From the NCBI RefSeq assembly GCF_001314225.1, contig NZ_CP012697.1, positions 2,480,001-2,544,000 on the forward strand: a DNA stretch of 64,000 nt, given 5' to 3'. This document shows, piece after piece, positions 5,752-38,350 of the stretch. Position numbers and translations under genes: made by a program. Below the pieces are notes generated by a model. It saw nothing but the letters and a program-made list of their open reading frames with translations, was not told the DNA's origin and searched no databases. The DNA comes from Microbacterium sp. No. 7 (GTDB lineage Bacteria; Actinomycetota; Actinomycetes; Actinomycetales; Microbacteriaceae). Each line of letters starts with the position of its first letter. Position 1 is the stretch's first letter.

Positions 5752-5790
5752 GCTGGCAGGCTCTCACCGCCACCGCGCACGCCGTCACCG

Positions 5791-5862
5791 TCAGCCGCGA
5801 TCGGTGGACAGATCGCTCGTCGACGTCATTGTGGACGAGGCGATGAGGTCATGGGCAGTCAT
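5791..5862 (-). CDS. Possible 23-residue leader peptide upstream of comEC
   Basis: A short reading frame beginning MTAHDLIASS and ending DLSTDRG, ending 39 nt before comEC. Its ATG is preceded by a very strong AGGAGGAGG ribosome-binding sequence, better than that of comEC itself. It overlaps the shared com element, so the coding look may be accidental. The frame is also open to an ATG at 6009 without a clear ribosome-binding site. The equivalent site upstream of comEA has no such ATG, which argues against a conserved peptide. Confidence 0.3.
   Translation of the reverse strand: MTAHDLIASSTMTSTSDLSTDRG
5797..5842 (-). promoter_or_regulatory. Shared com upstream element, comEC copy
   Basis: On the minus strand the element reads CGCCTCGTCCACAATG, 12 variable bases, then GATCTGTCCACCGATCGC, ending 45 nt before the comEC GTG. 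The comEA copy (10292-10337) is identical in both arms except two bases and has the same 12-nt variable centre and the same 45-nt spacing. Each arm contains a GTCCAC/GTCCCC core resembling an actinobacterial DnaA box (TTGTCCACA). It may be a promoter or an operator for a competence regulator. Confidence 0.6.
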
Positions 5863-6014
5863 GGCCGCCTCCTCCTGCATGACGCGACCACGACGGCCCA
5901 CGACCTCGGGCCGCCCGAGAAGGCGGTCGCTCGTTGCCGGATGCCGCGGTGCGGAGGCGACGACGAGCGCCCGCGATCCCGATGCCGTCTCCGTGAGCGA
6001 TCGCGCCATGCGAA

Positions 6015-6061
6015 AAGCCCAGTTGTGAGAAGCCCCGTTGCGAGAAGCCCCGTGCGGCGAG
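6015..6061. repeat. 15-bp tandem repeat, about three units
   Basis: Tandem units AAGCCCAGTTGTGAG, AAGCCCCGTTGCGAG and a 17-bp variant AAGCCCCGTGCGGCGAG lie directly after the permease stop, between that gene and the comEC upstream region. The unit differs from the 21-bp repeats elsewhere in the window. Confidence 0.7.
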
Positions 6062-6077
6062 AGCAGTGCGGCGAGGG

Positions 6078-7148
6078 CTACGCGCGCTCCTTGAACCGCT
6101 GAAAGAGCGTCGACTCCCTCAGCGGGACGACGGGGACGAGCGCGCCGAGGATCGCGCTCACGACGGCGATCGCGATCGTGGCGGCATAGGGCGAGGACCC
6201 GATCCCCTCGTCCCGGCCGAGCAGCAGGTGCGTCGCCCAGCCGCTCGCAGCCATGGCGAGGAGGCCTGCGGGCACTGCCCAGAACACCGTCTCGGCGACC
6301 GTGATCGCGACCAGATCACGATGCCGTGCTCCGGCGTGGAGGTTGCTCGCGAGCTCGAGCCGGCGTCTCCGCGTGCCCGCGGCGGCGACGACGGCGAACA
6401 CGAGCCCGAGGGAGGCGACGGCGAACCGGGTCGGACGGTCGGCGAACTCCCTCTGTCCGTCGAAGCCCGGCCCTCGCGCGGGGTTCGCCGAGGTCGTGCG
6501 TGCGTCCTTCGCCGCGGCGGCGCCCGGGATGAGCGCGGAGCGCAGCACCGCGTCGCGCGAGGGGTCGGTCGGCCACACCTCCGCCCAGCACTCCGACGCC
6601 GTCTCCGGCGTGCCGATCGTCACGATGGCGCTCGCCAGTCGCGGGTCGCGCCCGTCTTCCTCGGGGTAGGCGAACGTGTCCAGAACCGCGACCTCGGCCT
6701 GCGAGAGGGCGAGCGTCGCTCCGGCATCCACGCCCCAGGTCTCCGCGAGGGCATCTGATAGGTACACTCCGGCCTCCCCCGTCACCGGGATCCCGAGAAG
6801 ATCGGCCACGCCGTCGGTGACCTCGTAGTGCGGAATGCTGAGCGCACCGAGCGCGGGCAGCTGAACCGGATCGAGCGGTGTCACCGCGCCGGCGCCCGTG
6901 AAGCCCGGGAGCTCGCCGAGGCGATCGCACGCGGCCGGGGAGACGGCGCTGTCGGCGACGAGGATGCGGATCGCGGCGGCTGACGCACGGTACTCGCGGG
7001 CGCGGGCGTCGATGCCCCCGATCGTCGCGATGTCGGCGGCGAGAACGGCGCCGGTCGCGACGATCGCGACCGCGAACATCGCTCCGGCGCGCGCTGTGCC
7101 GGTGAGGGCGTTCCGCACCGCCTCCTGGATGAGGAAGGAGGCCCTCAT
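6078..7148 (-). CDS. FtsX-like ABC transporter permease
   Basis: A 356-residue membrane protein with an N-terminal helix (residues about 22-45), a large extracytoplasmic domain, and three C-terminal helices (about 245-262, 283-305, 323-345), the FtsX/MacB topology of a half-size permease. MacB-type exporters move peptides or envelope substrates. It overlaps the upstream ATPase remnant by 4 bp (ATGA-type), so it is the last gene of the operon running from 9272 down to 6078. The ATPase has lost its N-terminus, so the permease may lack a functional partner. Confidence 0.75.
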   Translation of the reverse strand: MRASFLIQEAVRNALTGTARAGAMFAVAIVATGAVLAADIATIGGIDARAREYRASAAAIRILVADSAVSPAACDRLGELPGFTGAGAVTPLDPVQLPALGALSIPHYEVTDGVADLLGIPVTGEAGVYLSDALAETWGVDAGATLALSQAEVAVLDTFAYPEEDGRDPRLASAIVTIGTPETASECWAEVWPTDPSRDAVLRSALIPGAAAAKDARTTSANPARGPGFDGQREFADRPTRFAVASLGLVFAVVAAAGTRRRRLELASNLHAGARHRDLVAITVAETVFWAVPAGLLAMAASGWATHLLLGRDEGIGSSPYAATIAIAVVSAILGALVPVVPLRESTLFQRFKERA

Positions 7149-7510
7149 CGGCTCACCGCGGCGACCGCGCTCGATGCGCGCGAAAGATCAAGGGTGTGAG
7201 AGCACGCGGCCATCGTGTCGTGGTCGTGCGTGGCGATGACGACGATGGCGCCCTCGGATGCCAGGCCTGCCAGGACGGCGTTGACGGTCTGCGCGGAGGC
7301 GCGGTCGAGCTGCGCGGTCGGCTCGTCCACGAGGAGCAGGTCGGCGCGCGTCGCGAGCGCCCTGGCGAGCATGAGCCGTTGCGCCTCGCCTCCGGAGAGG
7401 GAGCGGAACGGCCGTGCGCCGAGCCTCTCGATGCCGAAGCGCCGCAGCACGACGCGTGCTTCGCGCTCGGCATCGGCGCGGCACGCATGCGGCAGCGTCC
7501 TGCACGTCGA
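7145..7510 (-). pseudogene. ABC transporter ATPase, N-terminally deleted
   Basis: The frame carries the signature motif LSGGEAQRLMLARAL, Walker B LLLVDEPTAQLD and the H-loop ATHDH of an ABC ATPase, but the Walker A half of about 110 residues is absent. The ATPase frame can be followed upstream only to about 7510, where it runs into the end of the adaptor gene, still in another frame. A GTG at 7450 could start a 101-residue fragment. This is best explained by a deletion joining the 3' part of the adaptor gene to the middle of the ATPase gene. Without Walker A it cannot hydrolyse ATP on its own. Confidence 0.8.
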
Positions 7511-8399
7511 ACAATGCCCCGGGCGGCACCGCCACGACGTCGACCGGCTCCAGGAGCGACGTGAGGCCCGTCAGCCCCGAGGCCTGGCCCGCTTGCGACG
7601 TGAGCGAGAACCCCGGCGACGCGGCGATCTTCGCGAGCTGCTCCGGATCGAGGACCGCCCCTTCCGAGATCGTCGCGTCGATGCCAGCGACGCGCACGGT
7701 CCTGTCGCCGGGCATCGGCGCCGAGGTGCCGGGGTCCACGATCTGCAGCGCCTGCAGGGCGCCCGCCGTGCTCCCGAACGGTGCCCCAGGCCCGACCGTC
7801 TGTCCGATGGTCAGGTCGCAGCGTGCGCGCACCGTCGTCTCCCCGGGAACGCGCAGGACGGTCGACACGCGGAACCTGCCGTCCGCCGGGTCGAGATCAT
7901 GGTCGGTCTGGAACTGCTGCACCGCGTCGGCCAGCTCCGAATCGAATCGCCCCTCCGAACCGGACGGGTACCCCAGCGCCGCGAGCGCACCCCTGAGCGC
8001 CTCGACGTCGTCGCCCTCGTCGCCGAGGCTCAGGTCGCGGAACAGGGGCTGCACCGCGGCCAGTGCCACCACCGGCGCATTGTCCAGCCGCATCACGACG
8101 CTGCCGTTCGCCAGCGGCTGACCCACGGCACACGTGAGCTCCGTCACGGTACCGCCGCCCGCCACCGTGAGCGTCGTCGCCGGGCCGGTCACGGGCTGGA
8201 GCGCCACGGTCCTCTGGTCGCGATACGAGGTGGATGCCACGGGGTACGCCTCGGCCCTCGGCGGCTTCGCGAGGTTCGACGGCTCGGCCGGCGACAGGCT
8301 GAGGGCCAGCAACGCACCGCACGAGACCGCGGTCACGGCGAGAGCGGCGAGGCCCCGGAGCGTCCAGGCCCGCGCTGTCGCCCCGCGCCCCTCACTCAT
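7188..8399 (-). CDS. Peptidoglycan-binding/HlyD-like adaptor, 3' end replaced by out-of-frame ATPase sequence
   Basis: Residues about 12-35 form a membrane anchor. They are followed by a biotinyl-lipoyl/HlyD-like segment (TLTVAGGGTVTELTCAVGQP), an embedded peptidoglycan-binding-1 domain (residues about 125-170, LGDEGDDVEALRGALAALGY), and the second adaptor half to VVAVPPGALFDVQD. Such proteins link an inner exporter to the envelope in Gram-positive MacB-type systems. After about residue 300 the protein reads out-of-frame ATPase DNA (Arg-rich, no family resemblance), so its true C-terminus has been lost. It overlaps the lipoprotein gene upstream by 8 bp. Confidence 0.7.
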   Translation of the reverse strand: MSEGRGATARAWTLRGLAALAVTAVSCGALLALSLSPAEPSNLAKPPRAEAYPVASTSYRDQRTVALQPVTGPATTLTVAGGGTVTELTCAVGQPLANGSVVMRLDNAPVVALAAVQPLFRDLSLGDEGDDVEALRGALAALGYPSGSEGRFDSELADAVQQFQTDHDLDPADGRFRVSTVLRVPGETTVRARCDLTIGQTVGPGAPFGSTAGALQALQIVDPGTSAPMPGDRTVRVAGIDATISEGAVLDPEQLAKIAASPGFSLTSQAGQASGLTGLTSLLEPVDVVAVPPGALFDVQDAAACVPRRCRARSTRRAAALRHREARRTAVPLPLRRRGATAHARQGARDARRPAPRGRADRAARPRLRADRQRRPGRPGIRGRHRRHRHARPRHDGRVLSHP

Positions 8400-9051
8400 C
8401 CTCGATGATGTCGTAGTTCATGCCCGCCCCGTAGAAGCAGGATTTCACCTGCGGATCCTGCACGTCGAAGGGCGGGTTGCTTCGCATTCCGCGTTCCAAG
8501 AAGCCTCGCGTCGCATCGACGGTGACATCACCGCCGGCGAGCCCTGCTGATTCCAGACACGCGTACGCGACGCGCGCAGGGTCCGCATAAAGGTGCGGAT
8601 TTCCCTGCTGTATCTCGAACAGCATGATCACGTTCCCGGCCGTTGCCGCCATGCAATCCATGTCGGCGCGCATCAACGCATCGACATCGTCAACCAACGG
8701 AGGTTTCAGCTCAACGGCACCACTGACAAACTGCGCAGTCGAAATTGTATATCCCTGATCAGACATGCAATCAAGATACAAGTCGATTCCCATGAGATAC
8801 TCGCTCTGCTTTATGCGCCCCGACTCGGTTGCTCCCGTGAGCACATCCCGTTCAAAGTCCGTGAGCGAATCATCCCTCAGCGACTGCTCGAAGAGGTCCT
8901 GCAGCGAGTCGGCAATCGTCCCATCGACGGATGCCCTCTCTGTCGCAGAACAACCCACGAGCCCGAACACAAGGATGACCACCGCGGCGCAGAGCGCGGG
9001 GAACCGTCCGATGCAAAGACTCTGCGAACGCACAAGAACCTCGCCCGCCAT
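8392..9051 (-). CDS. Putative lipoprotein of unknown function
   Basis: A 219-residue protein with a hydrophobic signal ending in a lipobox (FGLVGC, Cys about residue 34), so it is probably attached to the outer face of the membrane. The mature part is acidic with several further Cys residues (DLYLDCMSDQ, DMDCMAA, AYACLE, KSCFYG) and no family I recognise. It has an AT-richer, less biased codon use than the neighbouring com genes, consistent with acquired DNA. It is translationally coupled at both ends: its ATG overlaps the TGA of the small upstream gene, and its end overlaps the adaptor start. Confidence 0.7.
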   Translation of the reverse strand: MAGEVLVRSQSLCIGRFPALCAAVVILVFGLVGCSATERASVDGTIADSLQDLFEQSLRDDSLTDFERDVLTGATESGRIKQSEYLMGIDLYLDCMSDQGYTISTAQFVSGAVELKPPLVDDVDALMRADMDCMAATAGNVIMLFEIQQGNPHLYADPARVAYACLESAGLAGGDVTVDATRGFLERGMRSNPPFDVQDPQVKSCFYGAGMNYDIIEDE

Positions 9052-9272
9052 CAGGAGCAGAGAATTCCGTCGCCGTGGGAGACGCGTCCTTCGTGCGTGA
9101 AATCGATATGGCCACAGTTACGCCCGCCACCGGGCGCGCAAGAAAGCGTCACCACTCCGGCATCGAGTTCTGTCGCCACGACCGATGTCGGCGGCGAGAC
9201 GAAGATACCGACCGCGAACTTCCCGAACACCATGCCCCCCAGCATCAGTATCGTCCTGTCGGCACACATCAC
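9051..9272 (-). CDS. Small secreted Cys-containing peptide, first gene of exporter operon
   Basis: A 73-residue protein with a hydrophobic N-terminal segment (about residues 8-25) and a Gly/Cys-containing tail with three Cys after the segment (TLSCAPGG, RNCGHID, ILCS). Its stop overlaps the lipoprotein start as TGATG, which argues for real translation. No family is recognised. Position as the first gene before a lipoprotein, an envelope adaptor and MacB-like exporter genes suggests a secreted peptide or bacteriocin-like product, but that is inference from context. Several in-frame Met codons near the start make the exact N-terminus uncertain. Confidence 0.45.
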   Translation of the reverse strand: MMCADRTILMLGGMVFGKFAVGIFVSPPTSVVATELDAGVVTLSCAPGGGRNCGHIDFTHEGRVSHGDGILCS

Positions 9273-9352
9273 TTGGATGCCACATCCATATTGCAGGACG
9301 CGCGGAGGCGTGTCAACTCCGTGATCGCCTCCACTGGCAGCGCCCGCAGAGA

Positions 9353-9599
9353 TCAGAAGCGGCTGGGTTCCACGCCGCTCAAGACCGCATACGCCAGCTC
9401 GGCGGATGAGGCGATGTACCGGGTAGTGCCGTCAGCCGTCGAGACGACGCCGGTCAGCCTCCAGCATGGCGCCGAGCTCCACGTCCACATCGATGCTCGG
9501 AAAGAAGTCCGTGCGGCGCGTTGCTCGACGGGGAGGAGTCGCGAGACCCGCACGAATCAGCCGGTCCAGCGGGTCCTGGTCGAACCCGGTCGCGCTCAT
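9353..9599 (-). pseudogene. Small conserved-looking gene broken by a frameshift
   Basis: An ATG at 9599 with a strong GAGGAGGAAG ribosome-binding sequence starts a frame beginning MSATGFDQDPLDRLIRAG and ending at 9432 after 55 residues. An overlapping frame continues with protein-like sequence (TTRYIASSAELAYAVLSG) to 9353. Joining the two near 9435-9450 would give one protein of about 80 residues. It is just upstream of the exporter operon on the same strand and may be its original first gene. The function is unknown. Confidence 0.4.
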
Positions 9600-9655
9600 C
9601 TTCCTCCTCATGGTCAAGAGCGTCGCACTCATCGCCACAGACTTCATACCCGCTC

Positions 9656-10246
9656 TCACAGCACCACCAGGTCGCGCAGGCCCTCGAGCATCTTCTCGCC
9701 GATGCCCGAGACCGCGAGCAGATCCTCCACGCTCGTGAACGGCCCGTTCTCGTCACGCCACTGGATGATCCGGGCCGCGATCGCGGGGCCGACGCGTGGA
9801 AGCGTGTCGAGCGCCGCCGCGTCGGCCGTGTTGAGGTTCACGCGACCGTCGGCCTCCCCCGCAGCCGCGGCCGATGGCGGTGGCACCTCGCCGACGGCCG
9901 GCACGTACAGCTGCTCGCCGTCGCTCAGTGCCCGCGCCAGGTTCACGGCGGCCGCGTCCGCGGCATCCGTCATGCCGCCCGCCGCCGCGACGACGTCGAC
10001 CACGCGCGCACCCTCGTCGAGCCGGTAGAGGCCGGGACTCACGACCTGCCCGTGCACGTGCACGTACACGGGCGCCGCCGTGGCGCGGATCTCGACCGCG
10101 ACGACCTCCTCGGCCGGCGCGGATGCCGTGCGCACGACGCCGATCGCGACCGTGGCGGCAGCGGCGGCGAGCACGAGCACGATCGCCGCGCCCAGGCCGA
10201 CGGTGCGGCGCGGTCGCGGCGCGGGCGGCGGGTCGACGGGGTCCAC
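9656..10246 (-). CDS. comEA: ComEA-type helix-hairpin-helix DNA-binding competence protein
   Basis: A 196-residue protein with an N-terminal membrane anchor (about residues 15-35), a SLBB-like domain (VYVHVHGQVVSPGLYRLDEG) and a C-terminal double helix-hairpin-helix (VNLNTADAAALDTLPRVGPA and VSGIGEKMLEGLR). ComEA binds incoming double-stranded DNA at the outer membrane face and delivers it to ComEC. I chose the GTG at 10246 because it puts the basic residues and anchor at the N-terminus; the frame continues upstream through non-coding-looking sequence. The shared com element ends 45 nt before this start. Confidence 0.9.
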   Translation of the reverse strand: MDPVDPPPAPRPRRTVGLGAAIVLVLAAAAATVAIGVVRTASAPAEEVVAVEIRATAAPVYVHVHGQVVSPGLYRLDEGARVVDVVAAAGGMTDAADAAAVNLARALSDGEQLYVPAVGEVPPPSAAAAGEADGRVNLNTADAAALDTLPRVGPAIAARIIQWRDENGPFTSVEDLLAVSGIGEKMLEGLRDLVVL

Positions 10247-10291
10247 ACGGGCAGCCTCGCACCCGCGCCCGTGCCGCGGAGCGCGAACCGA

Positions 10292-10337
10292 GCGATCGGT
10301 GGACAGATCCGCCGGGTCACACACTGGGGACGAGGCG
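10292..10337 (-). promoter_or_regulatory. Shared com upstream element, comEA copy
   Basis: The minus strand reads CGCCTCGTCCCCAGTG, 12 variable bases, then GATCTGTCCACCGATCGC, with 45 nt to the comEA GTG. It matches the element before comEC in sequence, internal spacing and distance to the start codon, while the sequences on either side are unrelated. Confidence 0.6.
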
Positions 10338-10364: not shown

Positions 10365-10445
10365 GGTGCTAATTATCTCGCCGAGGGTGCTTTCGAGAGC
10401 ACCCTCGCGGGAACAACTGGCACCCTCGCGAGAACAACTGGCACC
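10365..10445. repeat. Modular 21-bp palindromic repeat cluster, copy B
   Basis: One diverged forward unit (10365-10385), a central perfect 18-bp palindrome-like hairpin (10386-10403, GGTGCTTTCGAGAGCACC) and two inverted units (10404-10424, 10425-10445). The last is the exact reverse complement of the unit at 2205-2225. A partial further unit follows to about 10456. The block lies between the leuS stop and the comEA upstream element. Confidence 0.85.
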
Positions 10446-10487
10446 CTCGCGAGAAAAAGACGAGGGGATGCCGCGAGCACGGGGCCG

Positions 10488-37351: not shown

Positions 37352-38350
37352 ATGACGATCTTGAGCCAGATAGTCCAGGACGAGCGCACAGCACGGATGG
37401 TGCTGTCGATGCTCGTCGAACCGGACGATGCCGTCACCGGTCGCCTCCTGGGCGAGCTCGGTGCACAGGAGCTGTTTCGGATCGCCGAGGGTGATGACGC
37501 GGTGCCGGGGCTCAGCACCGTTGACGCTCAAGTGTGGCGCGCCCAGTTCCAGCGCCCAGACACTCGGACACTTGAAGAGAACCTCGTCGAAGCCGAGCGC
37601 GCCGGTACCGGCACGCTGATTCCCGGAGAGAAAGACTGGCCTTCCGCGCTCGACGATCTTGGCGACCGGCGGCCGTACGTCCTCTGGACTCGTGGCATGA
37701 CCTCGTTTCTCGCGCGACCGCTCAACGATCTCGTCACGATCACCGGCGCGAGGGCCTCGACATCCTACGGCGAGCAGGTGGCCGGGCAGCTTGCCTCCGA
37801 CCTCGCCTGCGCTGAGCGGATCATCGTGGCCGGAGGTGCCTACGGCATCGAAGGTGCTGCCCATCGCGCGGCGCTCGCGGCCGGTGGCGATACCATCGCA
37901 GTCCTTGCGAACGGAGTTGATCGCGCGTATCCGGCGGGCCACAGCGAGCTGCTCGGTCGTGTCGCTGATGACGGTCTGCTGGTCAGCGAAGTCGCACCCG
38001 GCGCAACGCCGACCCGCCATCGGTTCATCGCCCGTGCACGGTTGATGGCCGCACTGTCCACAGCAACGGTCGTGGTTGAGGCCGGCGCGCGATCGGGATC
38101 GATGAAGGTCGCGCAGGAAGCGCACCAACTCGGTCGCTCCCTCGGTGCCGTCCCCGGCCCCGTCACCAGCGCGACGAGTGTCGGGCCGCACCGGCTTCTG
38201 CACAGTGGGGAGGCCCGGTTGGTGGCCGGCTCGACCGACCTCGAACAGATGATCAGGCAGCCGGTAGGCAGCAGGGGTTCCGTTGCGGCGGTGCGAAGCC
38301 GACCTGCTCCCAGCGCCTCGCGTGATGCGCGAAGCGTCGTTGAGATGTGA
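37352..38350 (+). CDS. DprA-like DNA-processing protein (accessory copy)
   Basis: A 332-residue protein with the DprA/Smf Rossmann core: VTITGARASTSYGEQVAGQLA, IIVAGGAYGIEGAAHRAAL, DTIAVLANGVDRAYPAGHSEL, ATPTRHRFIARARLMAALS and VVVEAGARSGSM. DprA loads RecA on single-stranded DNA; accessory copies are frequent in mobile elements and defence loci. The N-terminal 100 residues are diverged from housekeeping DprA, and the C-terminal winged helix is short or missing. It lies in a presumptive defence/mobility cluster, 67 bp before an AlbA_2 gene on the same strand, so the two may be one operon. Confidence 0.87.
   Translation: MTILSQIVQDERTARMVLSMLVEPDDAVTGRLLGELGAQELFRIAEGDDAVPGLSTVDAQVWRAQFQRPDTRTLEENLVEAERAGTGTLIPGEKDWPSALDDLGDRRPYVLWTRGMTSFLARPLNDLVTITGARASTSYGEQVAGQLASDLACAERIIVAGGAYGIEGAAHRAALAAGGDTIAVLANGVDRAYPAGHSELLGRVADDGLLVSEVAPGATPTRHRFIARARLMAALSTATVVVEAGARSGSMKVAQEAHQLGRSLGAVPGPVTSATSVGPHRLLHSGEARLVAGSTDLEQMIRQPVGSRGSVAAVRSRPAPSASRDARSVVEM

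Follow-up and report, generated by a model that had tools for sequence, protein, structure and literature searches.

Elements shared by the promoters of competence genes are known in several forms. The CRP-S sites of the Sxy system consist of palindromic CRP half-sites, and in the streptococcal cin-box the element is the -10 region itself. The cin-box of SigX (ComX) is a single short element that tags nearly every com gene required for transformation (PMC8467076). In Bacillus subtilis, two ComK boxes stand upstream of late competence genes with spacers of 8, 18 or 31 bp, and with the spacers of 8 and 18 bp the distance between the boxes corresponds to one and two turns of the helix, respectively (PMC8170675). 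Among the Actinomycetota, the comEA/comEC promoter of Micrococcus luteus has been studied in detail and shows higher activity in minimal medium than in rich medium, and the consulted passages of PMC6667448, PMC8467076 and PMC12849477 name neither a cis element nor a direct regulator for it. The last of these (January 2026) describes knowledge of the subject as scarce, the competence regulon of M. luteus as currently unknown and its regulatory nodes as still to be identified. In the Microbacteriaceae, natural transformation is established in two species, Rhodoluna lacicola and Aurantimicrobium photophilum, and comEC transcripts were reported to be more abundant in the dark in the study of these bacteria (PMC11577799). 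Here, a pair of 46-bp elements upstream of comEC and comEA is analyzed in a 64,000-nucleotide stretch (the window; bases 2480001-2544000 of contig C1) of the 4.83 Mb genome of Microbacterium sp. No. 7. Each element very probably represents an operator pair for a candidate activator of an actinobacterial competence regulon, located in the upstream control region of a competence promoter.

The initial annotation, made from the letters of the sequence alone, had placed the two elements on the minus strand, each with two arms around a center of 12 variable nucleotides (N12) and each ending 45 nucleotides (nt) before a start codon. Coordinates, strand, arms and centers were all confirmed in the sequence (Table 1). 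The distance of 45 nt to the GTG codons of comEC (5751) and comEA (10246) is correct in both cases, and searches with hidden Markov models (HMMs) upheld the two gene identities. The surroundings had been described as unrelated; downstream of the elements 48 of 102 in-register positions are identical between the two copies, so that the flanks are no evident duplicates of one another. Exact copies of the 18-nt right arm are present at only 2 places in the genome, in the comEC and comEA elements, and with up to 3 mismatches it was found at 27 sites genome-wide versus 0 in the reversed control. When up to 3 mismatches were allowed, the two-box pattern CTCGTCCMCA-N18-CTGTCCACSGAT yielded 31 genome sites (14 with no mismatch, 10 with one, 4 with two and 3 with three) versus 0 in the reversed control, and a looser two-box form yielded 39 sites versus 1. 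These counts lie far over the controls, and the element is therefore not a product of chance.

A sequence logo was obtained from 30 sites aligned on the boxes alone, comprising 29 of the 31 strict sites (L021-L048 and L050) and one site of the looser form (L073); L049 and a site at position 4595214 were left out. The logo refined the conserved unit to two direct-repeat boxes of 9-12 nt, box A TCGTCC[C/A]CA and box B CTGTCCAC[G/C]GAT, which are 27 bp apart with variable sequence between them, and to a -10-like nAnnnT that had been absent from the initial annotation. This hexamer, on which the alignment was not anchored, stands 36 nt past box B, with the A present in 26 and the T in 27 of the 30 sites, and an RTG codon is located at +48/49 in 22 of them. 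Given the -10 position and the distance of the start codon, most targets look leaderless. Transcription probably starts at the start codon itself, and in the other cases a short leader would be present. The paired arms thus constitute part of a promoter and do not represent a repeat.

The nearest known design is the ComK promoter, which likewise uses two separated boxes with spacers tuned to helical turns. However, ComK boxes are AT-rich and the com boxes are GC-rich direct repeats (YYGTCC[A/C]CAG); the likeness is one of working principle, and the boxes themselves differ. The cin-box is read by an alternative sigma factor, whereas the com boxes are found at least 36 bp upstream of a -10 of the ordinary nAnnnT type, which in this genome forms a separate hexamer 36 nt downstream of box B. 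In contrast to CRP-S sites, the conserved com cores are direct and not inverted repeats. DnaA boxes follow the consensus TTWTNCACA, in which the first two positions are T and positions 6-9 read CACA. They share the core TCCACA with the com boxes, some of which read TTGTCCACA, but differ in the paired spacing and in the conserved positions, as in the com boxes position 2 is a mixture of C and T, position 7 is A or C and position 10 is G. Mycobacterial PafBC promoters carry a -26 element (consensus TGTCRGTG-N8-TAnnnT). They are also actinobacterial, belong to DNA-metabolism genes and sometimes coincide with the same promoter (DUF222 genes); the comEA promoters of Microbacteriaceae have no such columns. 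In PafBC promoters it is the -26 element that is read (PMC11804915). Among the papers listed in a literature search outside subscription papers and preprints, none dealt with an element of the kind described here.

The same element precedes several unlinked competence genes of this genome (G000), namely comEA, comEC, comF, yraN-comM, tadA and ssb. The initial annotation had proposed a competence-regulon operator or promoter and had named comF, dprA, ssb and type IV pilus genes as places where enrichment in a genome scan would support it. The proposal is supported by the sites before comF, an ssb, yraN-comM and the Tad/Flp pilus ATPase gene tadA; dprA lacks the element. By HMM, the comF target is a Pribosyltran protein with the ComF family model below its cut-off, and the pilus target is a TadA/CpaF ATPase of the Tad/Flp type (T2SSE, with TIGR03819 over its cut-off). 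Further DNA-handling targets are SSB and YraN (UPF0102), the latter followed by a Mg_chelatase/ChlI protein (ComM). Targets linked to the type VII secretion system (T7SS) include an EccC-like FtsK_SpoIIIE protein and a WXG100 protein. Four DUF559/MTES_1575 proteins (two exceeding a cut-off and two weak matches) were also identified, together with an M23 peptidase, a Phd-type antitoxin, a DUF4192 protein, a pRiA4b ORF-3-like protein and, each below its cut-off, an AbiEi-like and an EspA/EspE-like protein. Nine scanned targets (L021, L024, L037, L039, L041, L044, L045, L047 and L050) have no Pfam family.

Several observations concern individual targets. Five small proteins (L024, L036, L038, L041 and L044) are encoded behind leader-bearing com elements and four of them begin with a PQ[IV]WTLIAVF stretch; a Pfam scan of three (L024, L041 and L044) returned no family. 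For P0001, a target without assigned function, two matches only were obtained, one of which is the window genome's own. T7SS genes were found behind com boxes at L043 and L028 in this genome (EccC-like and WXG100) and at L310 in another family (WXG100-like, below cut-off). Proteins with an AbiEi winged helix-turn-helix (wHTH) and DUF559/MTES_1575 (Vsr-like) proteins are recurrent com-box targets across families (L025, L029, L034, L073, L276, L277, L296, L297, L305, L327 and L336). A position of dprA behind comM in this genome was considered and rejected. The yraN-comM-dprA cluster (L197; G000:C1:2247356-2264560) appears to be split, similar to comEA-comEC, with approximately 15 kb of other sequence between comM and the best DprA match. 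A DprA-like gene is present in the window at 37595-38221 on the plus strand (PF02481, 2.6e-57), and across the genome PF02481 is matched six times, on three contigs.

Table 1. Features of the window around the two com elements (positions are those of the window)
Feature	Position	Strand	Details
com element upstream of comEC	5797..5842	-	box A TCGTCCACA ~5838-5830, N18, box B CTGTCCACCGAT ~5811-5800
-10-like hexamer GAGCCT of comEC	5758..5763	-	36 nt after box B, 6 nt before GTG; putative leaderless start; placed via the conserved A and T of the 30-site logo
comEC, 790 aa	3379..5751	-	GTG start 45 nt past element; Pfam Competence 4.8e-37
com element upstream of comEA	10292..10337	-	box A TCGTCCCCA ~10333-10325, N18, box B CTGTCCACCGAT ~10306-10295
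-10-like hexamer GAGGCT of comEA	10253..10258	-	36 nt after box B, 6 nt before GTG
comEA, 196 aa	9656..10246	-	GTG start 45 nt past element; HHH_3 + SLBB; NCBIfam TIGR00426 over cut-off
three open reading frames separating comEA and comEC	6078..9051	-	FtsX-like (below cut-off), PG_binding_1, one without family

A series of nearly identical units (GAGGGTGCCAGTTGTTCTCGC plus an inverted part) directly precedes the comEA element, at 10370-10470 of the window, and similar strings are also present upstream of two further com elements (L034 and L039).

The initial annotation had named absence of the pattern before comEA and comEC of close relatives as a refutation. The exact consensus is indeed nearly absent from relatives, but many of them keep a drifted form of the same geometry before comEA, and the loss of the exact consensus was therefore rejected as a refutation. 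In these comEA promoters, inspected by eye and then by column statistics, the boxes have drifted to TCCTCCMCA and TTGTNCACSG-like sequences and a strongly kept -10, CCTAGCGT, is located six or seven nt before RTG. The relatives' -10 was chosen as TAnnnT, so that its score is partly built in, and the boxes played no part in the anchoring. Many family relatives carry TAGCGT at the -10 position of comEA, and in A. minutum (L139) two cores that are 27 bp apart, with a degenerate first box, are accompanied by a TAGCAT -10. A family search with up to 2 mismatches detected the element in 39 of 120 genomes (this one included), and every control count was 0. HMM analysis downstream of 29 examined loci of other genomes identified YraN (L173 and L175), AbiEi-type proteins (L176, weak, and L186) and DUF222 proteins (L164, L181, L185 and L188). 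A total of 80 comEC loci yielded six looser matches at other gaps, one of which (L105) is a comEA promoter.

In 70 of 79 family relatives comEC is located within 500 nt of comEA, while here three unrelated open reading frames intervene. The two genes are more than 1 kb apart in two relatives (L107 and L122). In L107 the separated comEC has its own box pair in a variant particular to that genome and shared by comEA (TCCTGCACA, 27 bp, TTGCGCACA, CCTAGCGT-N6-ATG), and a separated comEC with its own com promoter is thus seen in a second genome. As the likeness extends into the first codons, this comEC promoter was probably copied from the comEA promoter together with these codons. The comEC and comEA flanks in the window show no sure sign of copying. 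For L122, no such promoter was present in the stretch examined, in which the frame start is uncertain.

The initial annotation had placed the element in Microbacteriaceae, where it is indeed found, but it is not limited to them and also occurs in other families of the class Actinomycetia. Column statistics were calculated for those 137 of 154 comEA loci in which 130 nt of upstream sequence and a start associated with a usable -10 were available (78 from Microbacteriaceae and 59 from other families). A box core is located at -44 to -47 from the -10 in 49 of the 78 Microbacteriaceae promoters and 49 of the 59 other-family promoters, and a second core at -71 to -76 in 65 and 31 of them, respectively. 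In 50 letter shuffles the largest single column was 5 for Microbacteriaceae and 3 for the other families. The other-family consensus is YYGTCC[A/C]CAG for both boxes, and the comEA upstream regions of order and class share the two cores. An exact two-box search of 148 class genomes produced 139 matches in 46 genomes versus 12 in the reversed control. The spacing is constant within some genomes, with 29 bp in 11 of 11 sites of G135, 28 bp in 9 of 9 sites of G318 and 27 bp in 6 of 8 sites of G205, and adjacent spacings are mixed in others, such as G202, G219 and G301. The best box spacings in other families (n=54) fall into two groups that are one helical turn apart, 31 at 27-30 bp and 10 at 17-18 bp.

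Seventy of the 139 class matches were examined as loci (one site twice), and 28 of these have a -10 and a start at leaderless distance. Of the downstream proteins, 41 were scanned by HMM. They include ComEA, four YraN and four SSB proteins, two RecA, one topoisomerase I (TopA) and two comF-like proteins, one of which falls just short of the cut-off. Three DUF4192 proteins, seven DUF222 proteins (DUF222-HNH), seven proteins of the AbiEi/MTES_1575 type (two below cut-off), a phage-type integrase and a WXG100-like protein below its cut-off were also detected. Two ParA/MinD-type P-loop proteins (one below cut-off) by eye resemble Ssd/CpaE of Flp pili, and six of the 41 proteins have no family.

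Loci were also chosen without the motif. A box model was trained on the other-family comEA promoters and used to score the 260 nt before yraN and comF, with antisense and reversed sequences as controls, in the best-matching loci (29 for yraN and 28 of 29 for comF) from 59 genomes each. Of the 29 yraN loci, 12 reached a score of at least 16 (controls: antisense 1, reversed 0), as did 7 of the 28 comF loci (both controls 0). At a score of at least 14, the comEA regions of Microbacteriaceae were recovered in 32 of 78 cases (controls 0 and 0) and those of other class families in 39 of 78 (controls 0 and 1). The Microbacteriaceae, yraN and comF results are not circular. Outside the class, where 60 genomes of the phylum were searched and 29 loci obtained, 1 of 29 comEA regions of other Actinomycetota scored at least 14 (antisense 2, reversed 0), which is not above control.

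These observations are best accommodated by a sequence-specific activator that would bind the two direct-repeat boxes, which read YYGTCC[A/C]CAG elsewhere and TCGTCCMCA and YTGTCCACSGAT here. With the cores held in a fixed register, approximately 45 and 73 bp ahead of a -10 that is weak, and with no conserved -35, the bound activator would recruit the housekeeping RNA polymerase from upstream, and transcription would begin at the start codon or a few nt before it, which would leave many targets leaderless. Box placement and helical register, together with the weakness of the -10 and the absence of a -35, fit an activator that touches the polymerase from upstream. One operator design would thereby switch on the uptake genes (comEA, comEC, the Tad/Flp pilus and comF), the handling of the incoming strand (ssb and yraN-comM, and recA in other families) and linked genes for T7SS EccC/WXG100, DUF4192, DUF559/AbiEi and DUF222-HNH proteins. 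While boxes, geometry, -10 position, gene content and conservation across the class can be read directly, it is by inference that we propose an activating instead of a repressing role, a binding protein, leaderless starts and an inducing signal. A wider version of this explanation is offered tentatively, as one that is slightly less likely than not. In it, one undescribed master regulator would control competence across the class Actinomycetia via the helical-register box pair and would also turn on T7SS and nuclease-type genes (DUF559/AbiEi and DUF222-HNH) that act on transforming DNA or spread by it.

Several results weigh against an activator of a competence regulon. The dprA gene lacks the element, as neither a strict nor a looser genome site is located within 1 kb upstream of it, and the Phd antitoxin, M23 peptidase, pRiA4b ORF-3-like and coiled-coil targets have no obvious link to competence. 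A regulator gene was not found among the targets, in which the only outstanding helix-turn-helix genes are the multi-copy AbiEi/DUF559 genes; it is conceivable that the boxes are read by the wHTH domain of these proteins. The N18 form of the exact consensus is missing from the 80 Microbacteriaceae comEC loci, where close forms are rare, and 81 of the 120 family genomes, including G106 of the same genus, have no match at up to 2 mismatches. Thirteen of the 54 best spacings in other families lie outside 17-18 and 27-30 bp. Scores remained below 16 at 17 of 29 yraN and 21 of 28 comF loci and below 14 in 46 of 78 Microbacteriaceae and 39 of 78 other class comEA regions, the latter comparison being partly circular because the model was trained on 59 of those 78 promoters. 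At a score of 8 the controls rise (14 versus 3 and 2 for yraN, 9 versus 1 and 3 for comF).

The initial annotation had also considered DnaA, which would bind the boxes itself and couple the competence genes to replication status. Links between competence and replication exist in other bacteria, and the com boxes do resemble high-GC DnaA boxes. Some of them read exactly TTGTCCACA, and box B of several Microbacterium species is TTGTNCAC with a variable fifth base. Nevertheless, this option is unlikely given the preferences at positions 2, 7 and 10 and the boxes of the dnaA region. The latter are mainly TTATCCACA or TTGTCCACA in this genome (6 of 8 matches), as opposed to TCGTCCMCA and YTGTCCACSGAT for the com boxes. 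In other families T at position 2 occurs in only 38% of box B and 33% of box A sequences, C is accepted at position 7, and G at position 10 is kept in 75-80%, unlike in DnaA boxes. The AT-rich sequence L249 reads TAATCCACAG and not TTATCCACA. A DnaA paralogue was rejected, as the genome contains a single match to the DnaA binding domain (PF08299), and strict two-box spacing is not known to be typical of DnaA regulation. A repressor that silences the competence genes during growth is rather improbable. The cis position alone leaves the sign of regulation unfixed, but the cores, at a distance of approximately 45 bp or more from a weak -10 downstream that has no conserved -35, occupy a place typical of activators and lie clear of the promoter core.

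A dispersed repeat or DNA-uptake sequence without a promoter role would account for the approximately 30 copies in one genome but is hardly credible. This number is far too low for an uptake sequence, the centers and flanks are unrelated between copies while the distances to the -10 and the start codon are fixed, and one site precedes the same gene in many families. The genes recA, topA and ssb, which are targets in other families, could alternatively indicate a DNA-damage response rather than competence, governed by a PafBC-like (WYL, single-strand-DNA-sensing) regulator. In addition, the box pair occurs together with a PafBC-type TGTCGGTG-N8 element in 8 of 11 DUF222 loci (11 of 11 identified as DUF222 by HMM). 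A regulon of this kind is quite improbable, since the core targets are uptake genes and the comEA promoters of Microbacteriaceae have no strongly conserved columns between box B and -10, where the PafBC -26 element would be located. PafBC reads that element with sigma-A, not boxes 45-76 bp upstream of the -10 (PMC11804915). The DUF222 genes with both elements are L181, L185, L188, L315 and L318-L321; as the PafBC-type element adjoins the boxes there, DUF222 genes may obey both competence and DNA-damage control.

The activator reading has consequences for the biology of these bacteria. The boxes look like the missing on-switch for the uptake of foreign DNA in these organisms. A defined operator would serve as bait for the regulator and as a reporter, and it would allow candidate members of the regulon to be listed for sequenced actinomycetes. 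The presence of the boxes before T7SS genes and before nuclease-type families of unknown role suggests that these act during DNA uptake.

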